This document shows positions 55,720 through 63,199 of a stretch of 64,000 nucleotides of DNA, one piece after another. Within the stretch, counting starts at the first letter, position 1, and each line of letters starts with the position of its first letter. The position numbers were made by a program, and so were the translations under genes. Location: contig JACQZI010000023.1 in the NCBI GenBank assembly GCA_016207825.1, positions 1-64,000 on the forward strand, read 5' to 3'. The notes beneath the pieces were generated by a model that saw only the letters and a list, made by a program, of their open reading frames with translations, had not been told where the DNA came from and made no database searches. The stretch comes from Planctomycetota bacterium. Lineage in GTDB: Bacteria > Planctomycetota > MHYJ01 > JACQXL01 > JACQZI01.

Positions 55720-56649
55720 ATGGGAAACACTTGTTTTTTATTGGGTGCTGGTTTTACTCATGCCGTTACGAACGGAAAAGCACCTTTGACCTCTGGTTTA
55801 GTACCGCTGATTAAAAATATAATTACGGATGATTTGCAAGATACTCTTAACCATGTTGGCGACAACATTGAATTATTTATTACTTTGTTGGATTTAGAGG
55901 AGCGCTACACCGTACAAAATGAACGCAGAGATAAAATCAGCGAATGCAAAAAGAAAGTGATCGATAAAATAATTGATTGCTATGATATAGATAAATTTAC
56001 TGAGCATTTTCCTTTATGCGAGTCATTCGTTAAGAAGGTCAGCGATAATGCTTGTATTTTAACGCTAAATTATGATTGTCTATTAGACAGATACTTATAT
56101 TTAAGTAAAAGATGGTCTCCGCACGGAGGATATTTTGCCCAGCAATTTCCTTCAAGCATAAAACATAATTCTAATCTAGATAATGTACTACTGTTAAAAT
56201 TACATGGTTCTTGCAACTTTAGGAATAATAGTGGGAATTTAGACTACCCTAATATTGAGGTTTCCAGCAAGATTTTCCCCAGCATTCATGCGGAAATAAA
56301 TACGCGGAATTATAAACGGGATGAGGGGGCTCATGTTTTAATTATGAGTTATTTAAAACAATATCATAATGGTATAATGATGCTATGGAGAGAAGCAATA
56401 GAAACATTGAAGAATGCTAATAGGCTTACTATTATAGGCTGTTCACTCCGAGATGAAGATATATTTCTAAGATACGCCTTATATCATTTTGGGACTAAAG
56501 AAAATACAGACAAATTCGTCATTGAAATAGTTGATAAGAATAAAAATAGTGGTGAAACGATAAAGTCAAAAATAGAAGAATTGGTTGGATTTCCTGAGAA
56601 ACAAGAGTATAAAATATATAATGACTTAAAGGAATATTTAGGGGATTGA
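55720..56649 (+). CDS. SIR2-like domain protein, defence candidate
   Basis: 309 residues. SIR2-family Rossmann signatures: FLLGAGFTHAVTNGKAPLTS (NAD-binding GAG), ILTLNYDCLLDRYL, LLKLHGSCNF (catalytic-type His after LKL) and LTIIGCSLRDEDIFLRYALY. Bacterial SIR2 proteins of this type often act in anti-phage defence by depleting NAD+. The gene is AT-rich, unlike the por operon before it, and has its own promoter with a palindromic operator, all consistent with transfer. No second defence gene is adjacent, so it would be a stand-alone system or a remnant. Confidence 0.8.
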   Translation: MGNTCFLLGAGFTHAVTNGKAPLTSGLVPLIKNIITDDLQDTLNHVGDNIELFITLLDLEERYTVQNERRDKISECKKKVIDKIIDCYDIDKFTEHFPLCESFVKKVSDNACILTLNYDCLLDRYLYLSKRWSPHGGYFAQQFPSSIKHNSNLDNVLLLKLHGSCNFRNNSGNLDYPNIEVSSKIFPSIHAEINTRNYKRDEGAHVLIMSYLKQYHNGIMMLWREAIETLKNANRLTIIGCSLRDEDIFLRYALYHFGTKENTDKFVIEIVDKNKNSGETIKSKIEELVGFPEKQEYKIYNDLKEYLGD

Positions 56650-56967: not shown

Positions 56968-57759
56968 ATGGAACTGCCAATCCTCTCTAAAATCAAGATA
57001 GCCGTCTTTATCCCTGAAGAGCCGCCCAAGGGATATCTGGAAAAATGGCGTGATTCCATGAAAAAAGCCGCCCCCAAAATGCGACTTGGCATCAAACAGG
57101 CAATCAGCGGGATAGGCGACTACGCCCAAAAAATAGCCAAGCCGGGCATAAAAGAAATGATTGAATGGCTTAATCAGGGTTACAAAACCAAAACAGGCAA
57201 GAACTATGAGAAAATTATCAACAATATGCTGGCGAATATTCCCAAAGGATACGCCCGGTATATGAAAAAAGTGACGCGGGCGTTTAAGGCGGTTAAAGGG
57301 AATAAGGCAGACCGTTTTGCCAAAATCATTGATGCCAAGTCTTATTGGGTTGCCTTAAGAAGAAGCCAATTGGTTCTGCCTTTTATCGGGTATAAGGATG
57401 TTATCAGGGGACTTGGCCCATTTTCCGCAAGGTGGCTAAACGGTGATTTGGCAGTGATGGAACTCCTTACCAAACAGGATAATTGCTACGGCACAAAACC
57501 CTTATTAATTACTGCGCCGGAAAAGGCAGGTGAATTCAGGAATAAGTTTGTCCAGCAAATCTCCAAGTCCGGCGCGCGGATTGTCCAATACGATTACGGC
57601 GATAAAATAATCCTGGAAGAAAATAAGGAAATGAACAAACTTATAAATAAATACGCCGACAAAGGCATTGCCGAATTCTCACCCGGGAAATCCTCTCATG
57701 TTGATTTTATATTGGAAGGCAATCAACTATTCCTCGATATCCAGGTCGCGCAAGTGTGA
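56968..57759 (+). CDS. Hypothetical basic helical protein
   Basis: 263 residues from the ATG at 56968 (a TTG at 56941 is possible). It is rich in Lys, helical in the first 120 residues (LEKWRDSMKKAAPKMRLGIK, YARYMKKVTRAFKAVKG), then mixed (YWVALRRSQLVLPFIGYKDV, SGARIVQYDYGDKIILEE). I recognise no family. TATATT 7 bases before the ATG suggests a nearly leaderless message. The GC content is closer to core genes than that of the SIR2 gene. Its neighbours give no functional hint. Confidence 0.6.
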   Translation: MELPILSKIKIAVFIPEEPPKGYLEKWRDSMKKAAPKMRLGIKQAISGIGDYAQKIAKPGIKEMIEWLNQGYKTKTGKNYEKIINNMLANIPKGYARYMKKVTRAFKAVKGNKADRFAKIIDAKSYWVALRRSQLVLPFIGYKDVIRGLGPFSARWLNGDLAVMELLTKQDNCYGTKPLLITAPEKAGEFRNKFVQQISKSGARIVQYDYGDKIILEENKEMNKLINKYADKGIAEFSPGKSSHVDFILEGNQLFLDIQVAQV

Positions 57760-57828
57760 AATCCGCCCCCAATACATTTTACTTGATTATTTCAGATTGA
57801 TATGATAATTTCATCCTACACTTACAAA

Positions 57829-57896
57829 GGAGAGGTGGCTGAGTAAAGTCGCCCGCCAGAGGCGGGTCCGCCTTCGGCGGAATAGCGGCGGTCTTG
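57829..57896 (+). pseudogene. Broken tRNA-Ser copy interrupted by palindromic elements
   Basis: The first 16 bases of tRNA-Ser (57829-57844, identical to 58189-58204) are followed by a 37-base insert with CCCGCC-AGA-GGCGGG and TCCGCC-TTC-GGCGGA palindromes. The match then resumes for 15 bases (57882-57896, same as 58210-58224) and is cut again by a second CCCGCC-AGA-GGCGGG. No tRNA can be made from it. Confidence 0.75.
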
Positions 57897-57927
57897 CCCG
57901 CCAGAGGCGGGAAATGTGAGATAAAAT

Positions 57928-58185
57928 ATGGCTTGTGTTTATATATTATACAGTAACACAACCAGGAAATTTTATATAGGCTCCAGCAGAGAAAATAATG
58001 CCGATAAAAGAATAAAGGCTCATAATAGCGGAAGAACTAAATCCACAAAATCCGGTCGTCCGTGGATACTTATTTCTATAGAACAACATACAACTTATAC
58101 GGATGCACGAAAAAGGGAACTATTCCTGAAATCAGGTGTCGGGCGTGCTTGGATTAAAGAGAAATTTGGTTACTACAAAGCATAA
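57928..58185 (+). CDS. GIY-YIG nuclease (URI-type) inserted at tRNA-Ser
   Basis: 85 residues, nearly only the GIY-YIG domain: C-V-Y (as GIY) at 3-5 in ACVYILYSNTTRKFYIGSSR with YIG at 16-18, Arg and Lys in ADKRIKAHNSGRTKSTKSGR, and E in ARKRELFLKSG. This is the small UvrC-N-like type common next to tRNA genes. Its stop codon is 3 bases before the intact tRNA-Ser. A broken copy of the same tRNA lies just before it, so the gene sits between a damaged and a restored tRNA, as expected for a cassette that inserts at this tRNA. No clear ribosome site. Confidence 0.85.
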   Translation: MACVYILYSNTTRKFYIGSSRENNADKRIKAHNSGRTKSTKSGRPWILISIEQHTTYTDARKRELFLKSGVGRAWIKEKFGYYKA

Positions 58186-58188
58186 ATA

Positions 58189-58275
58189 GGAGAGGTGGCT
58201 GAGTGGTCGATAGCGGCGGTCTTGAAAACCGTTGTGGGCGCAAGCCTACCGGGGGTTCGAATCCCTCCCTCTCCG
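58189..58275 (+). tRNA. tRNA-Ser (anticodon TGA)
   Basis: 87-base class II tRNA. The acceptor GGAGAGG pairs with CCTCTCC, the anticodon loop CTTGAAA gives TGA, a long variable arm (TGTGGGCGCAAGCCTACC) follows, and the T arm contains GGGGGTTCGAATCCCTC. No CCA is encoded. It is directly preceded by the GIY-YIG gene. Confidence 0.95.
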
Positions 58276-58335
58276 CGGTGAACCACGTTGGGTTCACCGC
58301 GAGCCGTAAACTTGAGCATAGCGAATAGTTTACGG
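58274..58335 (+). terminator. Two perfect hairpins after tRNA-Ser
   Basis: CGCGGTGAACC / GGTTCACCGCG (58274-58284, 58291-58301; 11 bp) and CCGTAAACT / AGTTTACGG (58304-58312, 58327-58335; 9 bp). The first starts at the tRNA 3' end and is a likely terminator or processing structure. The second lies just before the dppA start. Confidence 0.55.
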
Positions 58336-58369
58336 ACGCAACCATCATTAAACAGAAAGGACTAGAGTC

Positions 58370-59200
58370 ATGAAAGTATTCATCTCCTGCGATATAGAAG
58401 GCATTACCGGCGTAATCGAACGCTCCCAGACTGATTTCCATGGCAAAGATTACGATAAAGCCCGTGAATGGATGACCAACGAAGTCAATGCGGTCATTGA
58501 AGCGGCACTCGCCTGCAAAGCCACGAAGATTCTCGTGAACGACGCCCACGGCGATATGTTTAATCTACTGATTGATAAACTCAACCCAAAAGCCACCATT
58601 ATTTCCGGCAGCCATAAGCCGCTCGTGATGATGGAAGGGATTCAAGCCAGATTCGACGCCGCGGCATTTGTCGGATACCACGCGCGGGTCGGGACAACCG
58701 GCGGAGTGCTTGACCACACCATGTATGGAAGGGCCGTCCATGAATTCAGGATTAATAACCGCCTCTTCGGCGAGACCGGCATAAACGCCCTGATTGCCGG
58801 ACACTATAAAACACCGGTCGTTCTGGTCTGCGGTGATGATAAAACCGCGCGCGAGGCAAAGTCATTCCTCGGAAAAGTGGAAACGGTTGAGGTTAAGCGC
58901 GGCATCACCCGCTATGCCGCGGAATCGGTCCATCCGACTGAAGCGGTAAAACGGATTAAAGAAGCGGCGCTGGTCGCATTTAAGGATTATAAATCCTATA
59001 AGCCTTTCATAATGAAAGGGCCGCTTAATCTTGTCTTGGAATTTATGGATAGCGGAATGGCGGATGAGGCGAGCCTGATGCCCGGCACCAAGCGCCTTAA
59101 CGGGTTTAGGGTCGCCTACAAAGCGCGCGATATCGTCGAGCTCTGCCAGGCATCTATGGTCTTAATAACCCTGGCGGCGCAGACCCTGCCGAGGAAATGA
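58370..59200 (+). CDS. dppA: D-aminopeptidase (DppA/M55 family)
   Basis: 276 residues. Zinc metallopeptidase of family M55 that removes N-terminal D-amino acids, usually linked to D-Ala peptide recycling. Metal ligands D8 and E10 in SCDIEGITGV, NDAHGDMFN, GYHARVGTTGGVLDHTMYG and the FGETGINALIAGHYKTPVVLVCGDD block are intact. GAAAGGAC precedes the ATG. It is alone on this strand, with two hairpins upstream and repeats downstream (59201-59347: a palindromic element and ACCGCAAAGACGCAAAGGAC-type stutters). Confidence 0.92.
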   Translation: MKVFISCDIEGITGVIERSQTDFHGKDYDKAREWMTNEVNAVIEAALACKATKILVNDAHGDMFNLLIDKLNPKATIISGSHKPLVMMEGIQARFDAAAFVGYHARVGTTGGVLDHTMYGRAVHEFRINNRLFGETGINALIAGHYKTPVVLVCGDDKTAREAKSFLGKVETVEVKRGITRYAAESVHPTEAVKRIKEAALVAFKDYKSYKPFIMKGPLNLVLEFMDSGMADEASLMPGTKRLNGFRVAYKARDIVELCQASMVLITLAAQTLPRK

Positions 59201-62763: not shown

Positions 62764-62985
62764 TTAGCACTCGAATTCACTGCGGGGGACACCTGATTGC
62801 CTGATTATTGATTGAAGCGTGCCTAATTTTATTTCAGGATGGTTTGGAACAGGAACGGTTATCGTAGTATGTTGAAGTTTTTTCTGCATTACGACATGGC
62901 TTCCGCGTTGGCGGACACGGACAAAGCCCTGTCTGACAAGAATCGCACAAACTTCCCTGCCGGAAAGGATTCGTAATTTAGCCAA
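62764..62985 (-). CDS. hicA: HicA-type mRNA interferase toxin
   Basis: 73 residues. HicA/YcfA double-stranded-RNA-binding-like toxin: SGREVCAILVRQGFVRVRQR, catalytic H30 in RGSHVVM, TITVPVPNHPEIKLGTLQSI, IRQSGVPRSEF. It overlaps the upstream hicB by 8 bases, giving the less common antitoxin-first order. The length is normal. Confidence 0.9.
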   Translation of the reverse strand: MAKLRILSGREVCAILVRQGFVRVRQRGSHVVMQKKLQHTTITVPVPNHPEIKLGTLQSIIRQSGVPRSEFEC

Positions 62986-63199
62986 TCGATACCTCCACCT
63001 GAGTTATATATACTTCGCCATGAAGCCGTTTTTTAATCTCTGATGGAGAAGCCGATTCGAAAAACAGCTCAATTGCCTCGCGGAGGTTATTACGTGCTTT
63101 TTCTATAGTATTTCCCTGGCTGGCGATATCCAGTTCGGGGCACAAAGCTACGTAATCTTTGCCTTCTTTTTCGATAACTGCGGTAAGTTGTTTGAGCAT
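62978..63199 (-). CDS. hicB: HicB-type antitoxin
   Basis: 73 residues. HicB fold (LTAVIEKEGKDYVALCPELD, SQGNTIEKARNNLREAIELF), which neutralises HicA. It is the short form: no C-terminal HTH or RHH domain is visible after VYITQVEVSIG, so DNA binding and autoregulation may be weak or need a partner. AAAGGAGG precedes the ATG. hicB and hicA form a two-gene islet between ahcY and guaB, bounded by the 30-bp direct repeats. Confidence 0.88.
   Translation of the reverse strand: MLKQLTAVIEKEGKDYVALCPELDIASQGNTIEKARNNLREAIELFFESASPSEIKKRLHGEVYITQVEVSIG

Follow-up and report, generated by a model that had tools for sequence, protein, structure and literature searches.

A small GIY-YIG nuclease gene between a broken and an intact tRNA-Ser: a candidate tRNA-replacing cassette in bacterial chromosomes

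Introduction

How does a small GIY-YIG nuclease gene come to lie between a broken and an intact copy of one and the same tRNA gene? The question is raised by a locus in a 64-kb stretch of a Planctomycetota genome (hereafter the window, by which we mean the whole stretch analysed). A first-pass annotation of this DNA, made from its letters, had proposed that a nuclease cassette targets the tRNA gene, restores it at one side and leaves at the other a damaged copy, which was later hit by palindromic elements.

Two known systems provide a background for this question. Mobile endonuclease ORFs of fungal mitochondria (in atp6 of Allomyces, and in atp6, atp9, cox2 and nad3 of Glomus) replace the ends of genes (PMC3630166). 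SegB, a phage-borne, free-standing GIY-YIG homing endonuclease encoded beside tRNA genes, is described in the part of its report drawn on here as cleaving within tRNA genes, with a preference for the motif RAWTSGAAC, and its activity is said there to lead to tandem amplification of the segment that carries tRNA and nuclease (PMC13096335).

Results

Anatomy of the locus

Read 5' to 3', the window holds in tandem a broken 5' half of tRNA-Ser (57829-57911), a GIY-YIG gene (57928-58185) and an intact tRNA-Ser(TGA) (58189-58276), with the following parts:

57778..57806, plus strand: promoter-like site TTTACT-17-TATGAT with TG before the second hexamer, a consensus match only, 5' of the broken copy
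57829..57844, plus strand: broken native tRNA-Ser, nucleotides 1-16, identical to nucleotides 1-16 of the intact tRNA-Ser(TGA)
57845..57851, plus strand: D-loop of the broken copy with changed bases, AAAGTCG against GGTCG in the intact tRNA, read directly
57852..57881, plus strand: 30-bp double hairpin CCCGCC-AGA-GGCGGG TCCGCC-TTC-GGCGGA, a D-loop insert between TCG and ATA
57882..57896, plus strand: broken tRNA-Ser, nucleotides 22-36 by comparison with the intact tRNA (3' side of the D-stem to the anticodon)
57897..57911, plus strand: single hairpin CCCGCC-AGA-GGCGGG, an anticodon-loop insert between TTG and AAA
57928..58185, plus strand: small GIY-YIG nuclease gene, 85 aa, UPF0213/SLX1-like, conserved core residues intact (PF01541, E 1e-13)
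58189..58276, plus strand: intact tRNA-Ser(TGA), the cassette's functional tRNA and the sole gene with this anticodon in the genome

As the first reading had it, three bases separate the stop codon of the nuclease gene from the start of tRNA-Ser(TGA), and the 5' copy preserves 16 identical bases and then 15 more. Both of the CCCGCC-AGA-GGCGGG palindromes that were said to cut it are present, but the first insert consists of two adjacent hairpins, the partner being TCCGCC-TTC-GGCGGA. Beyond the single hairpin the broken copy continues with AAA, after which the sequence diverges into the ORF. The 16-mer GGAGAGGTGGCTGAGT is found at 57829-57844 and 58189-58204, with no other exact match in the 2.89-Mb genome, and the double hairpin, the single one of its kind in the window, gives two matches (one element, read on both strands) against none in 100 window shuffles, which is far above chance. 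One further promoter-like site occurs on that strand, within the nuclease gene, and shuffles of the region yield 1.0 such sites on average; the site at 57778..57806 is probably the promoter of the native tRNA gene and would now drive the cassette as a whole. All anticodons of the source genome except Met are represented by a single copy, so that loss of the cassette tRNA would deprive the host of this tRNA.

Other features of the window may be recorded here. The ORF at 56974-57759, whose best Pfam match is below cut-off, shares 77% identity with a DNA copy at G000:C10:129650-130369, and a second, weaker copy lies at C7:292905. The ORF at 55720-56649 may be related to the SIR2-like proteins of defence systems, and two small ORFs on the minus strand at 62764-63199 have the look of a HicA-HicB toxin-antitoxin pair.

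The nuclease

The 85-aa protein scores 51.5 bits against PF01541 (cut-off 22.6, E 1e-13), which places it in the GIY-YIG superfamily, and Y5, Y16, G18, R28 and E64 are invariant in an alignment of 15 relatives. Profile comparison ranks the UPF0213 proteins BH0048 (1zg2, E 2e-16) and EF2693 (1ywl, E 3e-14) ahead of SLX1 (E 2e-6), such that the protein is nearer to UPF0213 and SLX1 than to the intron endonucleases; the NCBIfam group I intron endonuclease profile gives 23.8 bits against a cut-off of 56. The solved UPF0213 proteins are annotated as hypothetical proteins, while SLX1 is the subunit of a structure-specific nuclease. The window protein comprises the catalytic domain alone, without a DNA-binding module, and as such its sequence specificity is doubtful. 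NCBIfam and Rfam annotation gave no existing name. A tblastn search recovered no phage relative of the protein at E≤1e-3, and we do not place it in the SegB family. Nor is the locus a group I intron, since no intron family was detected in 57700-58400 at E≤1 and the tRNA is present twice rather than being divided by an intron.

Recurrence beside tRNA genes

Three Ser-type proteins served as queries in the locus scan (an alignment of 15 proteins was too variable for scanning), so the resulting sample is biased towards tRNA-Ser types; the genome material covered consisted of regions around tRNAs and matches. A tRNA on the same strand lies within 400 bp of the nuclease gene in 60 of 72 distinct small GIY-YIG loci and one on the opposite strand in none of the 72, and the M55 peptidase, an unrelated control gene, has a tRNA neighbour in 0 of 16 cases. 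With a score of 30 or more taken as a call, a broken copy of the same tRNA is present near 50 of the 60 tRNA-linked loci, while reversed sequence, used as control, gave none (best score 24). Two pairs of locus numbers, L069 and L099 as well as L070 and L126, denote the same loci. These counts lend strong support to the original proposal of a nuclease cassette at the tRNA, with an intact copy to one side and a damaged copy to the other.

The source genome itself contains nine small GIY-YIG genes or pseudogenes, UvrC not counted. When these were checked for an adjoining tRNA, as the first-pass annotation had advised, five, the window's included, were found beside one on the same strand (Ser-TGA, Val-GAC, Leu-CAA, Leu-GAG and Val-CAC). 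The same arrangement is seen in relatives of the same order and in 50 loci of many phyla, among them Uhrbacteria, Buchananbacteria, Liptonbacteria, Omnitrophota, Elusimicrobiota, Bacteroidota, Nitrospirota and Planctomycetota; L125 is a Pedobacter locus. The commonest layout (32 loci) runs from 5' fragment through nuclease to intact tRNA, and its mirror image, from intact tRNA through nuclease to 3' fragment, occurs in eight. The tRNA copies are spaced about 280-500 bp apart, with the GIY-YIG gene as the only ORF between them, and tandem duplicate units are present at L072, L110, L119 and L124. L124 has, 100-430 bp 5' of its ORF, a tandem array of three tRNA-Pro-like units of 108 bp in which the anticodon arm is swapped for GTCGCC-NNN-GGCGAC, and an intact tRNA-Pro and the GIY-YIG gene come after the array; single-hairpin arm replacements of this kind also occur in L123, L130, L138 and L139.

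Empty sites and the replacement tRNA

An element-free allele is available from a pair of genomes of the same genus, G000 and G001. At G000:C5:62478 one plain tRNA-Ala stands between flanks that are shared with L072 of G001, where the same flanks enclose a remnant, a GIY-YIG gene, an intact tRNA-Ala and two further copies that are hairpin-plugged in all three arms. Plain tRNA-Ser(TGA) genes with neither nuclease nor broken copy were found in six other genomes of the order, although without synteny. Empty sites of the kind that the first reading proposed to look for in relatives exist, but no syntenic one was found for the window's own tRNA-Ser, the same-genus genome being 56% complete and without a match over this tRNA. 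A partial tRNA-Ser in relatives devoid of the nuclease gene, which the first-pass annotation had named as evidence against its proposal, did not come to light.

The manner of insertion is particularly clear at L070 (Planctomycetota), where nucleotides 1-36 lie upstream and nucleotides 37-91 downstream of a module containing the nuclease and a complete tRNA-Ser. Together the two halves make up an entire tRNA-Ser, broken only by a hairpin and the cassette, and a hairpin and a short anticodon-arm repeat lie beside both of them; L105, L107, L119, L121 and L134 resemble this layout. At certain loci the cassette tRNA is visibly unlike the remnant, from which we conclude that the element replaces the native tRNA. 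In L134 the remnants GGAGAGG/CCTCTCC pair together, and the cassette tRNA has the differing GGAGGCG/CGCCTCC; in L007 remnants with GGGCAGT/ACTGCCC flank a tRNA-Val(CAC) with GGACGAT/ATCGTCC; and the intact tRNA of L072 lacks an encoded CCA and has another T-loop, the host 3' end being retained by the last plugged copy. An intact copy is therefore present at one side, as had been claimed, but it is not always simply the old gene restored. At most loci the overlap of remnant and intact tRNA is identical, and a foreign origin of the tRNA is accordingly demonstrated only at some.

Elements of this type were also encountered at protein genes. In L005 (1430-1900) what looks like a sigma-factor gene has its 5' end disrupted by a GIY-YIG element, and an intact gene start follows directly, which is the broken/intact anatomy seen at the tRNAs. 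L087 (G004) has on the minus strand, at about 1360-1800, a purE-like gene whose 3' end carries a GIY-YIG element together with a palindromic element of 73 bp; a diverged second copy of that gene end lies downstream.

Hairpins and inverted repeats

Broken copies contain 49 inserts of at least 14 bp: the D-loop has 22 of them, the anticodon loop 13 and the T-loop 11, while one lies in a linker and two lie in stems; loops, which by estimate make up about a quarter of a tRNA, thus hold 46 of the 49. Insertion is mostly between TTG and A or between TCG and A where the D-loop or anticodon loop of a Ser-type tRNA is hit, and between TTC and GA in T-loops, at positions that are the same across different phyla. 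The double-hairpin type seen at 57852-57881 is present in D-loops of broken tRNAs of other phyla, and anticodon-loop inserts at the window's point recur in L070, L100, L103, L105, L107, L119 and L121. Such placement in loops, at positions common to several phyla, makes an incidental later hit an insufficient account, and we reject the view that the palindromes struck the damaged copy at random.

The hairpins are not confined to tRNA genes. Double hairpins of the window type are present in 9/9 genomes of the order and in 4/50 other genomes of the class and phylum, with one or two imperfect copies in each of the latter; most of the dispersed copies checked are not near a tRNA. As such, plugging could stem from a target preference of the hairpin family's own. 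Short GC-rich hairpins, often paired, dispersed and inserted in structured genes, are known as the double-hairpin elements of fungal mitochondria and as REP/RAYT elements. What sets the hairpins described here apart is their concentration in tRNA-remnant loops next to GIY-YIG genes. REP/RAYT systems are recognised by a Y1 transposase adjacent to the palindromes; no REP-type transposase was noticed in the cassettes, and the GIY-YIG ORF is the only one seen between the tRNA copies.

Terminal inverted repeats, CCCCGTTAGAGAT/ATCTCTAACGGGG, enclose the GIY-YIG copies L005 and L009. The repeats bound elements of two forms, one with a GIY-YIG gene (264-278 bp) and one that is short, AT-rich and without the gene (104-108 bp), which have their ends alone in common. 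Elements with these ends are:

G000:C18:39670-39933 (L216)
G000:C10:203306-203583 (L212)
C8:64759-64862 (L210)
C27:79551-79658 (L219)
C13:1218-1324

Two of the short forms adjoin tRNA-Pro genes or their broken copies. A palindrome-like insert, CGTTCGACTGAGCGCTCACGACGAAG, was also noticed within the uvrC coding sequence of L010, seemingly in frame, at about 1779-1815 of the reverse strand.

Target preference and decay

On a protein tree of 64 rows and few columns, the label Ser versus other requires 7 changes, where the minimum in 300 shuffles was 12. The tRNA-Ser association thus appears to be inherited along the nuclease tree, as target preference in a homing endonuclease would lead one to expect; no significant association is seen when the non-Ser rows are analysed by themselves, 47 of 300 shuffles reaching the observed value. 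In the clade of the window protein, which spans Planctomycetota, Uhrbacteria, Liptonbacteria, Buchananbacteria, Elusimicrobiota, Omnitrophota and Bacteroidota, all members for which a tRNA was detected are linked to tRNA-Ser.

Stops or frameshifts affect the nuclease genes of L008, L009, L116, L134 and L145. Furthermore, four tRNAs of the source genome (Asp-GTC, Pro-CGG, Pro-GGG and Pro-TGG, the last identified by eye) are accompanied by hairpin-plugged broken copies without a nuclease, and these are best read as decayed cassettes. Taken with the five nuclease-linked tRNAs, they bring the scarred genes to about nine of 46. Homing genes pass through a cycle of gain and decay, and the broken nuclease genes and nuclease-less remnants fit such a cycle.

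Discussion

We consider it probable that these loci are produced by a homing-type selfish cassette, composed of a minimal GIY-YIG nuclease and a replacement tRNA, which takes over tRNA genes and leaves loop-plugged remnants behind. The cassette would insert into, or next to, a particular kind of tRNA gene; its nuclease would cut tRNA genes, and repair from the cassette-bearing chromosome would spread the element. The cassette tRNA would then assume the function of the native gene, whose interrupted remnant would be left across the nuclease gene from it. Repeated cutting of that remnant may allow short hairpin elements to settle in its loops (D, anticodon and T), a plugging that would be tolerated there. 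In the functional copy such errors would kill the cell, and on this proposal that is why the functional copy stays clean. The tandem units in L072, L110, L119 and L124 would match a SegB-like amplification of tRNA and nuclease. What the sequences show directly is how the cassette is built and that it recurs, together with an empty site, several loci at which the replacement tRNA differs from the remnant, the tRNA-Ser association on the tree, the decay of nucleases and the near restriction of inserted hairpins to remnant loops. As such, the cassette part of the first-pass interpretation stands, while simple restoration of the tRNA and incidental palindromes do not.

Several points speak against this scheme. 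Classical homing enzymes interrupt their own site, but in the intact tRNA the presumed cut sites are retained, which counts against immunity of the classical type; the cassette would escape its own nuclease only if cells with lethal errors are purged, as proposed here, or if there is very little expression. The protein consists of a catalytic domain alone, the hairpin family occurs outside tRNAs as well, remnant and intact tRNA are identical in their overlap at most loci, and the window's own locus yielded no syntenic empty site. Searches of viral contigs, phages and plasmids turned up no useful vector.

The nearest mechanism appears to be gene-end replacement in fungal mitochondria, where, as with the cassette, an endonuclease gene enters an essential gene, supplies a foreign replacement part and leaves a native remnant (PMC3630166). 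Endonuclease, foreign part and remnant can all be recognised among the loci described here, which would seem to work alike; we claim no membership, for the replaced gene is a tRNA. The fungal ORFs swap the 3' ends of protein genes, whereas the cassette supplies a whole tRNA in bacterial chromosomes, and its remnants bear loop hairpins, unlike the mitochondrial elements. SegB and the cassette nuclease are alike in being GIY-YIG proteins that adjoin tRNA genes, and on the other strand the SegB motif resembles the T-arm sequence GTTCGAAT in which the T-loop inserts sit; in contrast to the cassette, neither a broken native copy nor hairpin plugs are mentioned in the part of the SegB report used here (PMC13096335). 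Replacement-tRNA cassettes or loop plugs in bacteria yielded no description in the open-access literature searched, and the arrangement seems not to have been described previously.

Other explanations merit consideration, and two turn on the hairpins. The GIY-YIG protein, being SLX1-like, might itself be the mobility enzyme of the hairpin elements, with tRNA loops preferred since tRNA genes form hairpins, and with duplication of the tRNA rescuing cells that have been hit. The rank of SLX1 as nearest solved relative after UPF0213, the loop inserts in most remnants, the occurrence of double hairpins in every genome of the order but few others and the inverted repeats that bound L005, L009 and gene-less elements alike would all suit such an enzyme. 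Yet the genome-level co-occurrence comes from one related order, the short and long elements agree at their ends only, most of the dispersed hairpins checked lie away from tRNAs, and hairpin sequences differ between loci that have similar nucleases; we regard this explanation as unlikely. Alternatively, the hairpins may be kept by selection, either because they block pairing of truncated and intact tRNA within a shared transcript or because they break up homology against recombination that would delete the cassette. A shared transcript would be in keeping with a promoter-like site 5' of the broken copy when the sole other one on the strand is inside the nuclease gene, and the division of the shared tRNA here into runs of 16 and 15 nt leaves little for homologous recombination; but long unbroken runs persist at some loci (36 and 55 nt in L070), and exact insertion in loops is not predicted by selection of this kind, which makes it quite unlikely.

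We think it very unlikely that a tandem duplication of the tRNA, with a neutral GIY-YIG passenger, left a redundant, unselected copy to decay and collect dispersed palindromes. While duplicate units do occur at four loci and hairpins are indeed dispersed outside tRNAs, such a process leaves unexplained the same-strand GIY-YIG gene between the copies at 50 loci, the tRNA-Ser association along the nuclease tree, the differing tRNAs of L134, L007 and L072, and the placement of inserts in loops rather than stems. Partial and intact tRNA copies also resemble the repeats of an attachment site, as though a recombinase had driven site-specific integration in the style of a genomic island. This is highly improbable: the interval of about 280-500 bp between the copies has no recombinase, both 5' and 3' fragments occur, and a whole tRNA lies inside the insert, in L070, L105, L107 and L119 between the halves of the remnant. 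For want of an integrase between the copies, where the sole ORF is GIY-YIG, we also reject a tRNA-integrating genomic island as the identity of the locus.

A bolder extension of the replacement-cassette reading, which we put forward as doubtful, is that the nuclease cuts tRNA loops, swaps in its own tRNA and makes the host dependent upon it, and that the same cutting inserts hairpins in tRNA loops and elsewhere, the hairpins perhaps being short non-coding derivatives of the nuclease elements; the whole would amount to a widespread two-part parasite of bacteria. If the replacement-cassette reading is right, essential tRNA genes in many poorly studied phyla would often not be vertically inherited but swapped by minute selfish elements, which would account for tRNA fragments and for single-copy tRNAs of odd origin, and bacterial chromosomes would join mitochondria and phages as sites of this mechanism. 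It would also offer a handle on the origin of dispersed palindromic repeats, namely whether a structure-specific nuclease creates or places them.
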